A DNA stretch of 64,000 nucleotides, from assembly GCF_005885605.1 (NCBI RefSeq), contig NZ_SZVP01000001.1, forward strand, positions 62,001 to 126,000. The letters are read 5' to 3'. Under the pieces are notes generated by a model that saw nothing but the letters and a program-made list of their open reading frames with translations, was not told the DNA's origin and made no database searches. This document shows positions 39,871 to 48,334 of the stretch, piece by piece; the stretch's first letter is position 1; each line of letters opens with the position of its first letter. This DNA is from Colwellia ponticola. GTDB taxonomy: Bacteria > Pseudomonadota > Gammaproteobacteria > Enterobacterales > Alteromonadaceae. Position numbers and translations under genes: made by a program.

Positions 39871-40581
39871 AAATTGTAAATCCCATACGCCATGACCTAG
39901 GTTTTGGCCACGGTTTTCAAATTTAGTCAATGGACGAGAATCAGGGCGTGGTACATAGTCGTTTGTCTCAGACAAGTTACTATAACCTGGCGCACTTTGC
40001 ATATCTTCTAGCATACATTGTGCATAATTTTCCCAGTCAGTTGCCATATGAAATACACCGCCGACTTTCAATTTTTGTCTGATCGTTTCAACAAATTCAG
40101 CCGAAACAATTCTTCGTTTATGATGCTTTTTCTTATGCCACGGATCAGGAAAAAATAATTGCACCGTTGTCAGTGAGCCGTCAGGTATACAATCAGCTAA
40201 AATCTCAATAGCATCATGCTCATATACTTTTAAATTGCTAACGCCTGCTTCAACTGCAGATGAAATACAAGCGCCAACACCGGGCTTGTGTACTTCAATA
40301 CCAATAAAGTTTAGCTCTGGTGCCGCTTTAGCCATTTCAACTAAAGATTTTCCCATACCAAAACCAATTTCTAACACCACAGGGTTGGTATTAGTAAATA
40401 ATGTTTGAGGTTCAATAACGCCATCACTATGGTTTAGTCCCATGTTTTGCCAATGATCGTTAATCGCACGTTCTTGATTTTTGGTTAAGCGACCTTCGCG
40501 TTTAACAAAGCTACGTACTTTACGAATGTACTTACCTTCTTGCTCAGCCTGCTCTATGGTTTTATGTGTTTTTTCTGTCAT
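39856..40581 (-). CDS. trmB: tRNA (guanine-N7)-methyltransferase TrmB
   Basis: TrmB methylates N7 of G46 in tRNA variable loops using S-adenosylmethionine. The 241-residue protein contains the SAM motif [13 protein letters not shown], then [12 protein letters not shown], the active-site segment [20 protein letters not shown] and the C-terminal [17 protein letters not shown]. Length matches E. coli (239). It is 137 bp downstream of yggL on the same strand and opposite mutY-yggX, the conserved enterobacterial neighbourhood. Confidence 0.97.
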
Positions 40582-43096: not shown

Positions 43097-43172
43097 GCCC
43101 CGATAGCTCAGTTGGTAGAGCAGAGGATTGAAAATCCTCGTGTCCCTGGTTCAAATCCGGGTCGGGGCACCA
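43097..43172 (+). tRNA. tRNA-Phe (GAA)
   Basis: A complete 76-nt cloverleaf with encoded CCA and a GAA anticodon, identical over its full length to the minus-strand copy at 35548-35623. It leads a cluster with two tRNA-Thr genes. Nothing separates it from the first tRNA-Thr by way of a clear terminator, so a joint precursor is likely. Confidence 0.97.
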
Positions 43173-43283
43173 TTTTACAGAAGTACTACTAATTAATTTC
43201 TCGTTAATATTATTAAGTGATACTTCGGTGCCAAAAGTATTTAAGCCGTTATTTTAACTTAAATATTGCACACAGCTTTGTGT

Positions 43284-43359
<76 letters not shown>

Positions 43360-43384
43360 TTTATTCTCTTCTGAGAAGAAACCA

Positions 43385-43414
43385 AACCTTGACAGCAATG
43401 TTAAGGTTTTTTTT
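43385..43414 (+). terminator. Terminator after the first tRNA-Thr
   Basis: AACCTTGACA, GCAA loop, TGTTAAGGTT then eight Ts in total. One G-U pair in a 10-bp stem. Confidence 0.9.
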
Positions 43415-43535
43415 CACCTAAAGTTTAAGAGCAGATCTTACAAAGATATTACTCAATAAAAATATTAAATAATATTTCAGTGCCAAAAGTATTTAAGCCG
43501 TTATTTTAACTTAAATATTGCACACAGTTTTGTGT

Positions 43536-43611
<76 letters not shown>

Positions 43612-43926: not shown

Positions 43927-44021
43927 TTCATTCTCTTCATATTGTCTGAAATAATAACCCTTTATTAATAATGGCTATGCCATTATCATCAAGTAATACT
44001 GTTTACACTTTAGGTACAATG

Positions 44022-44569
44022 ATGAAAAAGCTAATAACTGTTTTATTAACGCTATTAATAACGGCTTGTAGCACTACAAATACCACTAAGTTTGACTATA
44101 ACGAAAAAACTGACTTTTCATCACTTAACAGCTTTCAATTTAGTGAAAAAATCAGAAAACTGTTGATTCAAATCCCATTATGGATAACCGCATTAAAAAT
44201 GCTATTGAAAGTGCTTTAACACGCCAGCTTTTTACCCATCAAGCAGAGCCTGCTGATTTACAGGTAAGTTATCACTTTACTCAACAGGAAAAAGCCAATA
44301 ACTCATCATTTAGTATTGGCTTGGGTGGTGCTAAAATGGTCGGTAACGGTCGTGCTGGTATAGGTTTAAGCACCAGTATCCCTATTGACAGTGACGCCAC
44401 CATCATCACTAAAATATTTATCGATATCAGCCATAATAACACCGCTATTTGGCATGGTACTGATACCTATGAAGGCAAGGGAGATATGTCTTATCAAGAC
44501 AAGGAAGACGCTATTACTACAACAGTCAATCGCTTGCTAGCTAACTTCCCTCCGACTAAAAATAAATAA
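44022..44569 (+). pseudogene. DUF4136-like lipoprotein gene with a frameshift
   Basis: The first part encodes a lipoprotein signal (MKKLITVLLTLLITACSTT, lipobox LITAC) and a DUF4136-like start (FDYNEKTDFSSLNSFQFSEK). The second part continues in another frame (KNQKTVDSNPIMDNRIKNAI, then LQVSYHFT and WHGTDTYEGKGD), which fits the same family. Frames switch at the run of six As at 44146-44151; seven As would restore one continuous reading frame of about 180 codons, the usual family size. AGGT lies 6 nt before the ATG. It may be a true pseudogene, a slippage-dependent gene or a sequencing error. Family role: unknown outer-membrane or periplasmic lipoprotein. Confidence 0.75.
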
Positions 44570-45013: not shown

Positions 45014-45226
45014 AATACTGAAAAGCTCCCTTTAACACTTCAACGATGTTAAGTAGCAGCCATTACAGCATTAAGCGTTATTATTTAGTCGTGCTAGTTA
45101 GTTGAATAATCCTCTAAAAAAGTGATAATAGCATCAATGCCATTAAATTTATTGACCCGATTAGCGCTTCAGTCGCGAGTTAAAAATAGTTATATATAAT
45201 AAATAAGCCCTTCCCCTGGAGAAAAC

Positions 45227-47401
45227 ATGCCATTAGTAAACCTATATCAAAAACTGAGCCCTTTTCAGCGGGTTATTATTGCGCTAATACTGGGTATAAG
45301 TACGGGTATTTTTGTAGGAGAGCCCGCGGGAAATATTGCCGTTATTGGCGATGTTTACATCCGCCTATTACAAATGACCGTATTACCTTATGTACTTGTC
45401 TCTATTATTGGTGGTCTAGGGCGTTTAGACAGTTCAATGGCTAGTCGCATTGGTATGCGCGCAGTCAAGGTTATTATTATTATGTGGTCGGCTGTAATGG
45501 CAACCCTATTACTACTTCCTTTAGCTTACCCTAACTGGCAAACCGCTGGTTTTTTCAGTACCAGTATGATTACTGAGCCCAGCACTTTTAATTTTGTAAA
45601 ACTGTATATTCCCAGTAATATTTTCGCCTCACTATCCGAAACCATTGTGCCCGCGGTTGTTCTCTTTTCATTGTTGATGGGGGTTGCCTTAATACAGGTG
45701 AAAAATAAAGAGACACTATTAACCTTAACCACAAATATTGGCGACAGTTTAATGAAGGTTGCCTCTTATGTAGCCAAATTAGCACCTTTAGGTATTTTTG
45801 CTATTTCAGCGGCTGCCGCTGGTACCTTAGAAGTGGAAGAGCTTGGTCGTCTACAAGTATTTTTATGGGTTTATATCATTGCCGCTGCCCTACTCGCTTT
45901 TGTATTTTTACCGTTACTGATTCATTGGGCTACGCCTTTCTCTTATCGTGAAATTTTATCCACCGCCGGTGAAGCCATGGTAACGGCATTGGCAACAGGG
46001 ACAGTATTAGTTGTTCTGCCTATGATAATAGAGCGTAGTAAAGAGTTATTAGCTAAGCATGGTATGGAATGTGAAGAAACAGACTCAACGGTAGATGTGT
46101 TAGTTCCTACCGCTTACAGTTTCCCAAGTACCGGTACTTTATTAGGTTTAGGTTTTATTCTATTTTCTGCTTGGTATGTTGGCACACCATTAGGAGATGA
46201 CGATTATATTTCTTTTGTGGTGATGGGTGCATTAACGGCCTTTGGTAGCATGGCTGTTGCTATTCCTTTTTTACTTAACTTTTTCGACTTACCTGCTGAT
46301 CAATTTCAATTGTACCTATTAGGTAGTGTTGTTACAGCGAGATTTGCAACCGGTTTAGCCGCATTACATGGCTTTGTGGTGACTTTATTAGTTGCCTCAG
46401 CAGTATTGAAAAAGCTTAGATGGCATAGAATGATGCAAGCCATTGGTATTCACTTAGCGGTGACATTTGGCGTGATGATTGCCACTGGCTTTATTTTAAA
46501 AGCAATGATCCCCTATAAATATGAAGGTATACAAACCTTTGAATCAATGAAAGCAATGAATACAATTACTGAGTTTGAATCCTATCAAACACTTACGCCA
46601 CTAGGGTACTTTGAGCAGCAACAACCTCGCCTTGAAGTCATCCTTGAACGTAAAAGCATCCGTGTTGGCTATTACGAAGCAAGTTTACCTTATGTTTTTA
46701 AAAATAAAGATAATCTTATGGTTGGCTTTGATATCGAAATCTTGACGCAGTTTGCTAAAGATTTAGATATTAAATTAGCAGTGATACGACTTGAAAGCAG
46801 CGCTAATGAAGCTGAGTTATTAGCTAATGGCAGCATTGATATAACGCTGGGCGGTCACACTATTACACCTAAGCGAGCCTTAGAAGTAACCTTCTCAGAT
46901 GCTTATACTTTCCACACAGTAGGTATATTAGTCAATGATGCTAAACGTGATAAGTTTGCGGATATTTCGACCATTGCAACCATAAAAGATTTAAATTTAG
47001 GTGTAGGACGTAGCAAGTACTACAAAGATATGGTTAAAGAGTACCTACCCAATGCCAAGCTAACACAATTAACGGATGAAGATTACGTAAGGCAATTTCT
47101 TAAAGGGCATTATAAAGGCATAGATGCCTTAATTTATTCCACTGAAGCTGGTTCCGCTTGGGCTATGCTGTACCCTAACTTTTCAGCCATTATACCTAAA
47201 GGTATGCAACTTAGAGCACCTGTTGCGTTTGTTATGCCAAAAGGTCAATTAGACTATGTACAATACATGAATACTTGGCTCAAACTAAAACAAGATAATG
47301 GTTTTCAAGATAAGGTATATGACTATTGGATTTTAGGTAAAAACCCTAAAGCCAAAAAACCACGTTGGTCAGTAATGAAAGATGTACTCGGCTGGATTTA
47401 G
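45227..47401 (+). CDS. Dicarboxylate/amino acid:cation symporter-like protein fused to a solute-binding domain
   Basis: The 724-residue product combines two families. Residues about 1-430 resemble the DAACS (GltP/SDF) sodium- or proton-coupled symporters, with several hydrophobic helices and the N-terminal LLQMTVLPYVLVSIIGGLGRL. Residues about 465-710 form a periplasmic solute-binding domain of the SBP_bac_3 type (KSIRVGYYEASLPYVF, GFDIEILTQFAKDL, NGSIDITLGGHTITPKRA, FSDAYTFHTVGILV). The transport core is unusual: the TM7 NMDGT signature appears replaced by YSFPSTGT, and the serine-rich hairpin by TALATGTVLVVLP. The substrate is probably an amino acid or carboxylate, but this is inference. 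GGAG lies 8 nt before the ATG. A strong terminator follows. Confidence 0.85.
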   Translation: MPLVNLYQKLSPFQRVIIALILGISTGIFVGEPAGNIAVIGDVYIRLLQMTVLPYVLVSIIGGLGRLDSSMASRIGMRAVKVIIIMWSAVMATLLLLPLAYPNWQTAGFFSTSMITEPSTFNFVKLYIPSNIFASLSETIVPAVVLFSLLMGVALIQVKNKETLLTLTTNIGDSLMKVASYVAKLAPLGIFAISAAAAGTLEVEELGRLQVFLWVYIIAAALLAFVFLPLLIHWATPFSYREILSTAGEAMVTALATGTVLVVLPMIIERSKELLAKHGMECEETDSTVDVLVPTAYSFPSTGTLLGLGFILFSAWYVGTPLGDDDYISFVVMGALTAFGSMAVAIPFLLNFFDLPADQFQLYLLGSVVTARFATGLAALHGFVVTLLVASAVLKKLRWHRMMQAIGIHLAVTFGVMIATGFILKAMIPYKYEGIQTFESMKAMNTITEFESYQTLTPLGYFEQQQPRLEVILERKSIRVGYYEASLPYVFKNKDNLMVGFDIEILTQFAKDLDIKLAVIRLESSANEAELLANGSIDITLGGHTITPKRALEVTFSDAYTFHTVGILVNDAKRDKFADISTIATIKDLNLGVGRSKYYKDMVKEYLPNAKLTQLTDEDYVRQFLKGHYKGIDALIYSTEAGSAWAMLYPNFSAIIPKGMQLRAPVAFVMPKGQLDYVQYMNTWLKLKQDNGFQDKVYDYWILGKNPKAKKPRWSVMKDVLGWI

Positions 47402-47430
47402 CTAATCCCACAATTACCTACTAGGCACAA

Positions 47431-47454
47431 AAAAAGCACCTTGTGGTGCTTTTT
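47431..47454. terminator. Bidirectional terminator between the fusion transporter and the convergent amidohydrolase gene
   Basis: AAAAAGCACC, loop TTGT, GGTGCTTTTT: a perfect 10-bp stem whose A and T flanks allow termination on both strands. Confidence 0.9.
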
Positions 47455-47473
47455 TATTATCTAGATAATAAGG

Positions 47474-48334
47474 CTAAGCTTTATTATTTTGCTTATGGTA
47501 GTTATTAATATACCACTGAGTATGTTGAGCAATAGTATCATTATACGCTTGCTTTAATGATGGCAACACCACAGTATTAGCCTGCCCAGTTAATTCATCC
47601 ATAAAAACTTTTTTAGTTTCAGTGGCTAACACTAATACTTGCTCGTATTTACCATGACAAAACGCCGCTAAATACCCTTTACCATAAAAAATATCATTTT
47701 CTGCTGCGATAACCTTTACGCTATCAACTTGCATACCCTGTAAGGCCGTTAACCAGCTATCAATAATAGCTCGCCACTGCTCACCTTTAACTGAGGTAGT
47801 CCCTACGTTAAATACCGGTAAATCTTGCCTTTCATGGCGCTTAAAATTATACGAGTGGTTGTCATAGACAACACATTGCCCAAAGTCTTCAATTAGCGCT
47901 TCAACAACGCCAGCAACAATGCGATAAAATTGCGCATGTTTCGCCTTACTTTTAGCAATCATGACTTCAGTTAAAGGTGTTGTCCAAATATCTTTGCCCC
48001 AAGCAGTTTCATAAACACATTCATCAGTATTACGATTTAAATCATATTCATAACGCGAATCGTGAGCAATTAAGGTGATCGCTTGTTTGGCAATAAAGCT
48101 CGCTGTGTGTGGGTCTTCTTCATAATAACGCGATGCTTTATCTAGTAAGCAATTTTCTTCAAGCTCTGCTCTAAAGTTGCTACCATCATGAATAGCAGCG
48201 GACATAGCTGGCAAATATTTCTCAATTTTAAGGGTGAAAGCTCCGCCGACTACTGTAGCTTCAAAACAGTGACGTCGCTTTATTTTATTAATAATTTCTT
48301 GTTCGGTGAGTTGTTTGGTGAGTTGTTCAGTCAC
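47474..48334 (-). CDS. N-formylglutamate amidohydrolase family protein
   Basis: The 286-residue protein matches the N-formylglutamate amidohydrolase family by ITLIAHDSRYEYDLNRNTDE (arginine- and aspartate-containing core), CVVYDNHSYN and GKGYLAAFCHGKYEQVLVLATE. These zinc enzymes act in histidine degradation or on related N-acyl amino acids; some family members have unknown substrates. No other histidine-utilisation (hut) gene is visible here, so a hut role is unsupported. It converges on the fusion transporter gene across a bidirectional terminator. The N-terminal TEQLTKQLTEQE is a short polar repeat. Confidence 0.8.
   Translation of the reverse strand: MTEQLTKQLTEQEIINKIKRRHCFEATVVGGAFTLKIEKYLPAMSAAIHDGSNFRAELEENCLLDKASRYYEEDPHTASFIAKQAITLIAHDSRYEYDLNRNTDECVYETAWGKDIWTTPLTEVMIAKSKAKHAQFYRIVAGVVEALIEDFGQCVVYDNHSYNFKRHERQDLPVFNVGTTSVKGEQWRAIIDSWLTALQGMQVDSVKVIAAENDIFYGKGYLAAFCHGKYEQVLVLATETKKVFMDELTGQANTVVLPSLKQAYNDTIAQHTQWYINNYHKQNNKA

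Follow-up and report, generated by a model that had tools for sequence, protein, structure and literature searches.

The SLC1 fold is probably the best-studied elevator fold. In glutamate transporters, the NMD motif is described as a nexus of ion and substrate binding, while D394, R397, and N401 bind the amino group, the side-chain carboxylate, and the main-chain carboxylate, respectively (PMC12668577). According to PMC12344293, TRAP and TTT systems were the only secondary transporters known to use a soluble binding protein before the work on TAXI-GltS, and TAXI-GltS fusions are rare. The same source poses the question of whether an elevator mechanism makes the use of a binding protein possible, and notes that this could be tested with further classes of such transporters.

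Here, we analyzed one gene in a 64,000-nucleotide stretch of the Colwellia ponticola genome (the window, whose numbering is used throughout). A preliminary description, made from the sequence alone, had proposed that this gene joins a DAACS/GltP-like membrane core to an SBP_bac_3-type periplasmic binding domain in one reading frame, and had pointed to TRAP transporters as the example of binding-protein-dependent secondary transport. TRAP is indeed a precedent, but not the sole one, as TTT and TAXI-GltS systems are also of this kind (PMC12344293). No study of an SDF plus SBP_bac_3 fusion was found in the literature searched, which was mostly without subscription papers, and such a report may exist.

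Results

A single gene encodes an SDF core and an SBP_bac_3 domain

The fusion gene (45227..47401, + strand) is a single uninterrupted frame of 724 aa, with an ATG at 45227, a stop codon at 47399-47401, and its own ribosome-binding-site-like motif, a GGAG (45218..45221, + strand) seen directly in the sequence five bases 5' of the ATG. The Pfam SDF family matches residues 15-390 (45269..46396, + strand; E 5e-51) over positions 4-385 of the 387 in its profile, and SBP_bac_3 matches residues 478-702 (E 1.2e-20); each match passes its curated cut-off. The two halves of the proposed architecture were thus recovered in one frame, and the SDF match spans the full domain. By Pfam and solved relatives, the binding domain covers residues about 472-705 (46640..47341, + strand), and it is preceded by a variable linker (residues 428-471; 46508..46639, + strand). 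A match to Lig_chan-Glu_bd (E 0.11) remains under its cut-off. The NCBIfam models DctA, GltP, and SstT match the core and several amino-acid binding protein models match the rest, all of them far under cut-off, so that the fusion is none of these named proteins. Four further SDF genes are present in the same genome.

The fusion recurs in two clades

A total of 54 distinct homologous proteins or pieces were gathered, 50 of them full length. Four partial or split pieces (L026, L028, and two of L027) and identical duplicates were left out of the 50, as was L052, a 506-aa partial protein under the score used. The 50 distinct full-length fusions fall into clade A (28, window protein included), with over 50% identity to the window protein, and clade B (22), with 28-34% identity. 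The closest named homologues (84-87% identity) come from Colwellia, and one homologue is annotated as 'cation:dicarboxylase symporter family transporter'.

When the domain architecture was searched with Pfam, SDF and SBP_bac_3 were found in 25/25 homologues from both clades, with no third family at E <= 0.001; the motif counts and conservation scores given below refer to 25 of the 50 full-length fusions. All 53 complete matches listed from 99 related genomes cover both domains. Among the listed matches, significance falls from E 5.7e-114 to matches over the SDF length only at 1.2e-25 and weaker; therefore, no stand-alone core of the fusion subfamily was seen among those listed from the 99 genomes. 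The preliminary description had allowed for a sequencing-error fusion of two genes. With 50 distinct full-length proteins spread over two clades, this can be excluded, and the two domains are truly joined in one chain. Where dN/dS was defined, it was 0.02-0.07 for the core in nine of ten pairs and 0.07-0.10 for the SBP domain in seven of ten, the remaining pairs being undefined because synonymous sites are near saturation. Strong purifying selection acts on both domains.

Clade A was detected in 27 of the 99 related genomes (in one of them split across two contigs) and clade B in 24, with both clades in 11 and neither in 59. These counts leave out a fragment resembling clade B in G035 (query 13-115); one TGA lies inside the matched stretch of the clade B row G051, whose frame still has 710 aa. 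Further out, the fusion is rare, being found in 6/274 genomes of a class sample (one a 506-aa partial) and in 6/398 genomes of a phylum sample, the genome of the window included in both. A profile search of the 274 class genomes returned the same five other fusions. The fusion profile found no relative in the viral collection. In the plasmid collection it gave two distant fusions, L080 and L079, on 156-kb Halioglobus and 919-kb Pseudoalteromonas plasmid records, and the fusion gene is therefore present on secondary replicons too. A copy in a metagenome-assembled genome labelled Deltaproteobacteria (L027:6001-8168) is frame-broken in mid-gene; it still has an FGase neighbour, which matches at 67% over 152 residues up to the contig end.

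The core has a predicted SLC1 fold with an added ninth helix

A model of residues 1-445, for which six ordinary SDF rows were included in the alignment given to the predictor, is of moderate quality (pLDDT 70.2, pTM 0.71). It predicts an SLC1 fold with two re-entrant hairpins and a broken TM7: hairpin 1 spans residues 240-257 and 261-277, TM7 (283-296 and 302-317) is broken at the sequence SFPSTG, and hairpin 2 (324-337 and 342-352) is followed by TM8 (357-393) and an added TM9 (399-427; 46421..46507, + strand). Many bacterial and human SLC1 structures were among the matches to the core. The structure 9bgy was matched by Foldseek at E 3.1e-11 and gave the highest Z in VIA-align (32.6; rmsd 4.1, 373 aligned), in agreement with the DAACS/GltP-like core proposed earlier. 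As the six added SDF rows may bias the model toward the SLC1 fold, the assignment leans also on Pfam and hhalign. The aligned ranges stop by residue 399, with TM9 outside. A full-length model built from 22 clade A sequences was poor (mean pLDDT 48.3, pTM 0.33), for which reason no claim is made about domain docking.

All 50 fusions have a hydrophobic TM9 (lowest peak 1.72). Between TM8 and TM9, the loop carries a strong basic charge, with a mean of 3.8 Lys+Arg and 0.06 Asp+Glu, and the segment past TM9 is acidic, with means of 0.76 and 2.04, respectively (50 fusions). By the positive-inside rule, these charges predict a periplasmic binding domain, as the preliminary description had supposed, and TM9 should be the element that brings the chain to that side. 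Since the C-terminus past TM8 is cytoplasmic in the known SLC1 fold, it is TM9 that makes such a fusion workable.

The transport site is remodelled

To compare individual residues, the alignment of the 25 fusions also included the four other SDFs found in the genome of the window. The absence of NMDGT noted before was borne out: its place in TM7 is taken by SFPSTG (residues 298-303; 46118..46135, + strand), with Pro300 in 25/25. At the N310 column, Asn occurs in 0/25 and Pro in 25/25 fusions, and Asp is found at the D312 column in 0/25. Retention in TM8 is equally low (N401 and D405 0/25 each, D394 and R397 1/25 each). The place of the serine-rich motif at the tip of hairpin 1 is occupied by ATGTVL (residues 256-261; 45992..46009, + strand). 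The loss of this signature, also proposed earlier, holds for the most part, as Ser is kept in 1/25 fusions at the S278 column, but it stays in 9/25 at S277. Hairpin 2 (residues about 335-357; 46229..46297, + strand) is six residues shorter than the canonical one and its tip loop is gone, the Gly of the VPG tip being deleted in 25/25; the six-residue gap was found again by hhalign on different alignments. In helix 8, position 372 (46340..46342, + strand; Arg in the window protein) is occupied by Arg (18) or Lys (7) in the 25 fusions, compared with Met (three) or Ser (one) in the four ordinary SDFs, its exact register being uncertain because of the nearby gap.

The four ordinary SDFs retain N310 (three), D312 (one), N401 (four), D405 (three), D394 (four), and R397 (three); as some of these residues, such as D312, vary there too, the canonical set is not universal. 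Judged by the NMD motif together with N401, D405, D394, and R397, the fusions do not belong to the characterised Na+- or H+-coupled glutamate transporters.

Conservation across the 25 fusions is highest in TM7 (0.72), TM4 (0.70), and TM2 (0.70), followed by hairpin 1 (0.66) and hairpin 2 (0.64). It is lower in TM8 (0.58), TM9 (0.42), and the loop between hairpin 1 and TM7 (0.42), with the lowest scores in the linker (0.38) and at the N-terminal end (first 12 residues, 0.35). This pattern in the aligned sequences suits a working, differently built site better than a decaying one.

The binding-domain pocket differs between clades

The closest solved relatives of the binding domain are cyclohexadienyl dehydratases and their reconstructed ancestors, and in profile comparison the ancestors AncCDT-1 and CDT-Anc1 score best. 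At the column of residue 550, which we take to hold the usual pocket Arg for the carboxylate in SBP_bac_3 amino-acid-binding proteins, Arg was counted by eye in 6/7 printed clade A rows (window included) and in 4/22 clade B rows. The column that presumably carries the usual Asp for the amine in these proteins is Ser638 in the window protein. The two clades probably bind different ligands.

An amidohydrolase gene accompanies clade A

Downstream of the fusion, a convergent gene (47474..48334, - strand) encodes an amidohydrolase of the FGase family (PF05013; 55.6 bits), and a terminator-like inverted repeat with A and T tracts (47429..47455) can be seen directly in the sequence between the two genes. 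An identification of this neighbour as HutG, the N-formylglutamate deformylase, was rejected, since the NCBIfam equivalog model gives 13.2 bits against a cut-off of 278.75. An FGase gene lies 3' of the fusion in 16/24 loci of one search, and in three of the eight loci lacking it the sequence stops at the fusion or no more than 0.6 kb from it. It is also located beyond the fusion in L048 and L049, from two other families. As just 1.5 kb of flank is visible in these two loci, and the upstream ORF of L048 belongs to a family also found upstream, in opposite orientation, in Colwellia loci, a wider shared gene order is possible.

A close FGase orthologue (defined as 64% or more over most of the protein) is present in 20/27 genomes with clade A versus 0/72 without it (Fisher 2e-15, relatedness ignored), leaving seven clade A genomes without one. 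Within the genus the corresponding numbers are 20/26 versus 0/13 (3e-6), and in the class sample 2/2 versus 0/271 others. Not counted were a 69-residue FGase fragment of 75% identity in G001, which lacks clade A, and FGase matches at 33-41%; three of the listed close matches (G015, G018, and G283) contain one internal stop. Within the 99-genome set, no close FGase orthologue was found in clade B genomes that lack clade A. The linkage of fusion and amidohydrolase may be inherited gene order.

In addition, a gamma-glutamyltranspeptidase gene adjoins the 3' end of the fusion in five loci (L012, L014, L015, L021, and L041), and it sits 6 bases past the amidohydrolase in L014 and L021 and 67 bases past it in L015. 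In the genome of the window, a paralogous FGase domain (L104) shares its chain with a MATCAP peptidase domain and lies beside a glutathione-synthetase-like ATP-grasp gene, an arrangement that suggests an amide or peptide pathway. As a lead, these observations suggest for clade A a substrate in which glutamate, or an acid like it, carries an amide.

In clade B loci, two ORF families recur 3' of the fusion (11/22 each) and a third recurs 5' of it (7/22). By eye, these recurring neighbours are an RcsF-like lipoprotein, TrmO, and methionyl-tRNA synthetase, which give no clue to function. Two of the three clade B paralogues of genome G078 (L060 and L061) are each followed by a same-strand ORF of one family, and the one 3' of L060 resembles GGDEF-EAL by eye, a possible signalling link in that lineage.

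Upstream of the fusion in the window, there are three consecutive tRNA genes (43097-43608; Rfam). Between positions 40000 and 52000 only these three tRNAs reach their family cut-off, three other RNA matches being under theirs. A DUF4136 lipoprotein gene (43971-44569) is apparently split over two overlapping frames, 43971-44219 and 44180-44569, one with a lipoprotein-signal-like start (by eye) and the other with the Pfam match, which indicates a frameshift or a sequencing error.

Discussion

We are moderately confident that the fusion is a single-chain, binding-domain-fed importer of the elevator type that does not rely on conventional cation coupling and perhaps takes up an N-acylated or gamma-glutamyl-type acid. 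One chain would form a self-contained importer, probably homotrimeric as SLC1 proteins are. Its C-terminal SBP_bac_3 domain, which TM9 is predicted to place in the periplasm, would capture the solute and pass it to the outward-facing transport domain, which, judging from the fold, would bring it in by an elevator movement. Because known glutamate transporters bind Na+, the amino group, and the main-chain carboxylate with residues that are gone here, and because a Lys/Arg is fixed in helix 8, uptake is probably not driven through the usual Na+ sites. The fixed Lys/Arg may replace part of the role of the cations, and uptake may be uncoupled or use another ion. A high affinity of capture on the outside, together with consumption of the substrate in the cell, would set its direction, the enzyme keeping up the gradient. 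Many uncoupled members of the transporter family adjoin genes for amino-acid enzymes, and a pairing of this kind has been proposed (PMC12668577).

For clade A, we hypothesize that the likely substrate is an organic acid lacking a free alpha-amino group, for example an N-acylated or gamma-glutamyl-type compound. This hypothesis draws on two facts: the core has lost its amine-binding Asp, and the amidohydrolase gene co-occurs. The idea is not general, since clade B mostly lacks the pocket Arg (4/22 keep it) and close FGase orthologues are absent from clade B genomes that lack clade A.

The preliminary description had left a choice between binding-domain-assisted transport and a nutrient sensor. 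In terms of sequence and prediction, assisted transport fits better, because a signalling domain was found by Pfam in 0/25 chains scanned and the amidohydrolase co-occurs with clade A. A sensor or transceptor, in which a core that does not transport would let the periplasmic domain sense a nutrient and signal across the membrane to a separate partner, is the foremost alternative, and we regard it as unlikely. The known substrate and ion ligands of the core are lost, as this reading would have it, and the alteration of both the core and the binding-domain pockets is compatible with non-transport. The membrane protein DctA is said to work with the kinase DcuS, and the GGDEF-EAL-like ORF at one of the two similarly arranged G078 paralogues could be such a partner. 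However, besides the two points already given, conservation within the core is on the high side in TM7 and in both hairpins, and the families recurring beside clade B fusions are not signalling-like by eye, most neighbour ORFs there being unnamed.

A regulated transporter appears improbable to us. Here, the core would carry its own substrate, and the binding domain would act as an allosteric gate for a signal, without solute handover. SBP-type domains do gate membrane proteins elsewhere, as in ionotropic glutamate receptors, and both the variable linker and the sub-threshold match to Lig_chan-Glu_bd speak for this arrangement; yet one shared substrate is the simpler account of why core and binding domain have been remodelled jointly. 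It seems very improbable that the C-terminal domain acts as an enzyme, namely as a cyclohexadienyl or arogenate dehydratase of the periplasm. Its best solved relatives do include such dehydratases, but the best profile scores go to the ancestors AncCDT-1 and CDT-Anc1, which we take to be binding proteins, and the presumably catalytic Glu of the dehydratase TDTVEA stretch aligns with Ala641 in the fusion. Finally, a sequencing-error fusion or a pseudogene can be dismissed in spite of the frame-broken L027 copy, given 50 distinct intact proteins under strong purifying selection.

In the fusion family, nature has attached a binding domain to the SLC1 elevator fold. It would let one ask, in a single protein, how a binding domain hands over its solute and whether transport becomes one-way, and also how an SLC1 carrier operates after losing its sodium sites.

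Among known systems, the SDF/DAACS symporters (GltPh, GltTk, EAATs, and DctA) share with the fusion the Pfam SDF family, the fold, the two hairpins, and the broken TM7. The fusion is unlike them in lacking the NMD motif, N401, and D405, in its short hairpin 2, in the Lys/Arg of TM8, and in its added TM9 and fused binding domain. The best PDB match of the core in both sequence and fold is AncInt, a Na+-uncoupled ancestral aspartate transporter (PDB 9bgy, 9bgz, and 9bh0). According to PMC12668577, AncInt shows that the SLC1 fold can function without Na+, but it retains the binding-site residues, which the fusions do not. ABC importers with permease-fused binding domains (PDB 6h30) resemble the fusion in joining an SBP_bac_3-type domain to a membrane protein; in contrast to them, the fusion has no ATPase or ABC permease domain by Pfam.

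With an extracytoplasmic binding domain (its side being predicted) on a secondary-carrier fold, the fusion is a candidate binding-protein-dependent secondary transporter. Pfam scans of the window and 25 homologues gave SDF and SBP_bac_3, with no TRAP, TTT, or GltS membrane part and no DctP, TAXI, or Bug binding protein. Since both carrier and binding-protein family differ, the fusion is a member of none of TRAP, TTT, and TAXI-GltS, although it is our hypothesis that it works like them. TRAP systems (SiaPQM and DctPQM) resemble its proposed mode of action in that an elevator carrier performs secondary transport fed by a binding protein; their DctP/TAXI binding proteins and DASS-fold membrane part (PMC12344293) are what sets them apart. 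The nearest precedent is TAXI-GltS, in which a secondary transporter outside the TRAP and TTT groups has a binding protein as its partner, some bacteria having the two fused, and the carrier is modelled as elevator-type, as is proposed for the fusion (PMC12344293). The TAXI domain there is N-terminal to the GltS carrier and the one studied binds glutamate, whereas in the fusion described here an SBP_bac_3 domain lies C-terminal to a carrier of the SLC1 fold.
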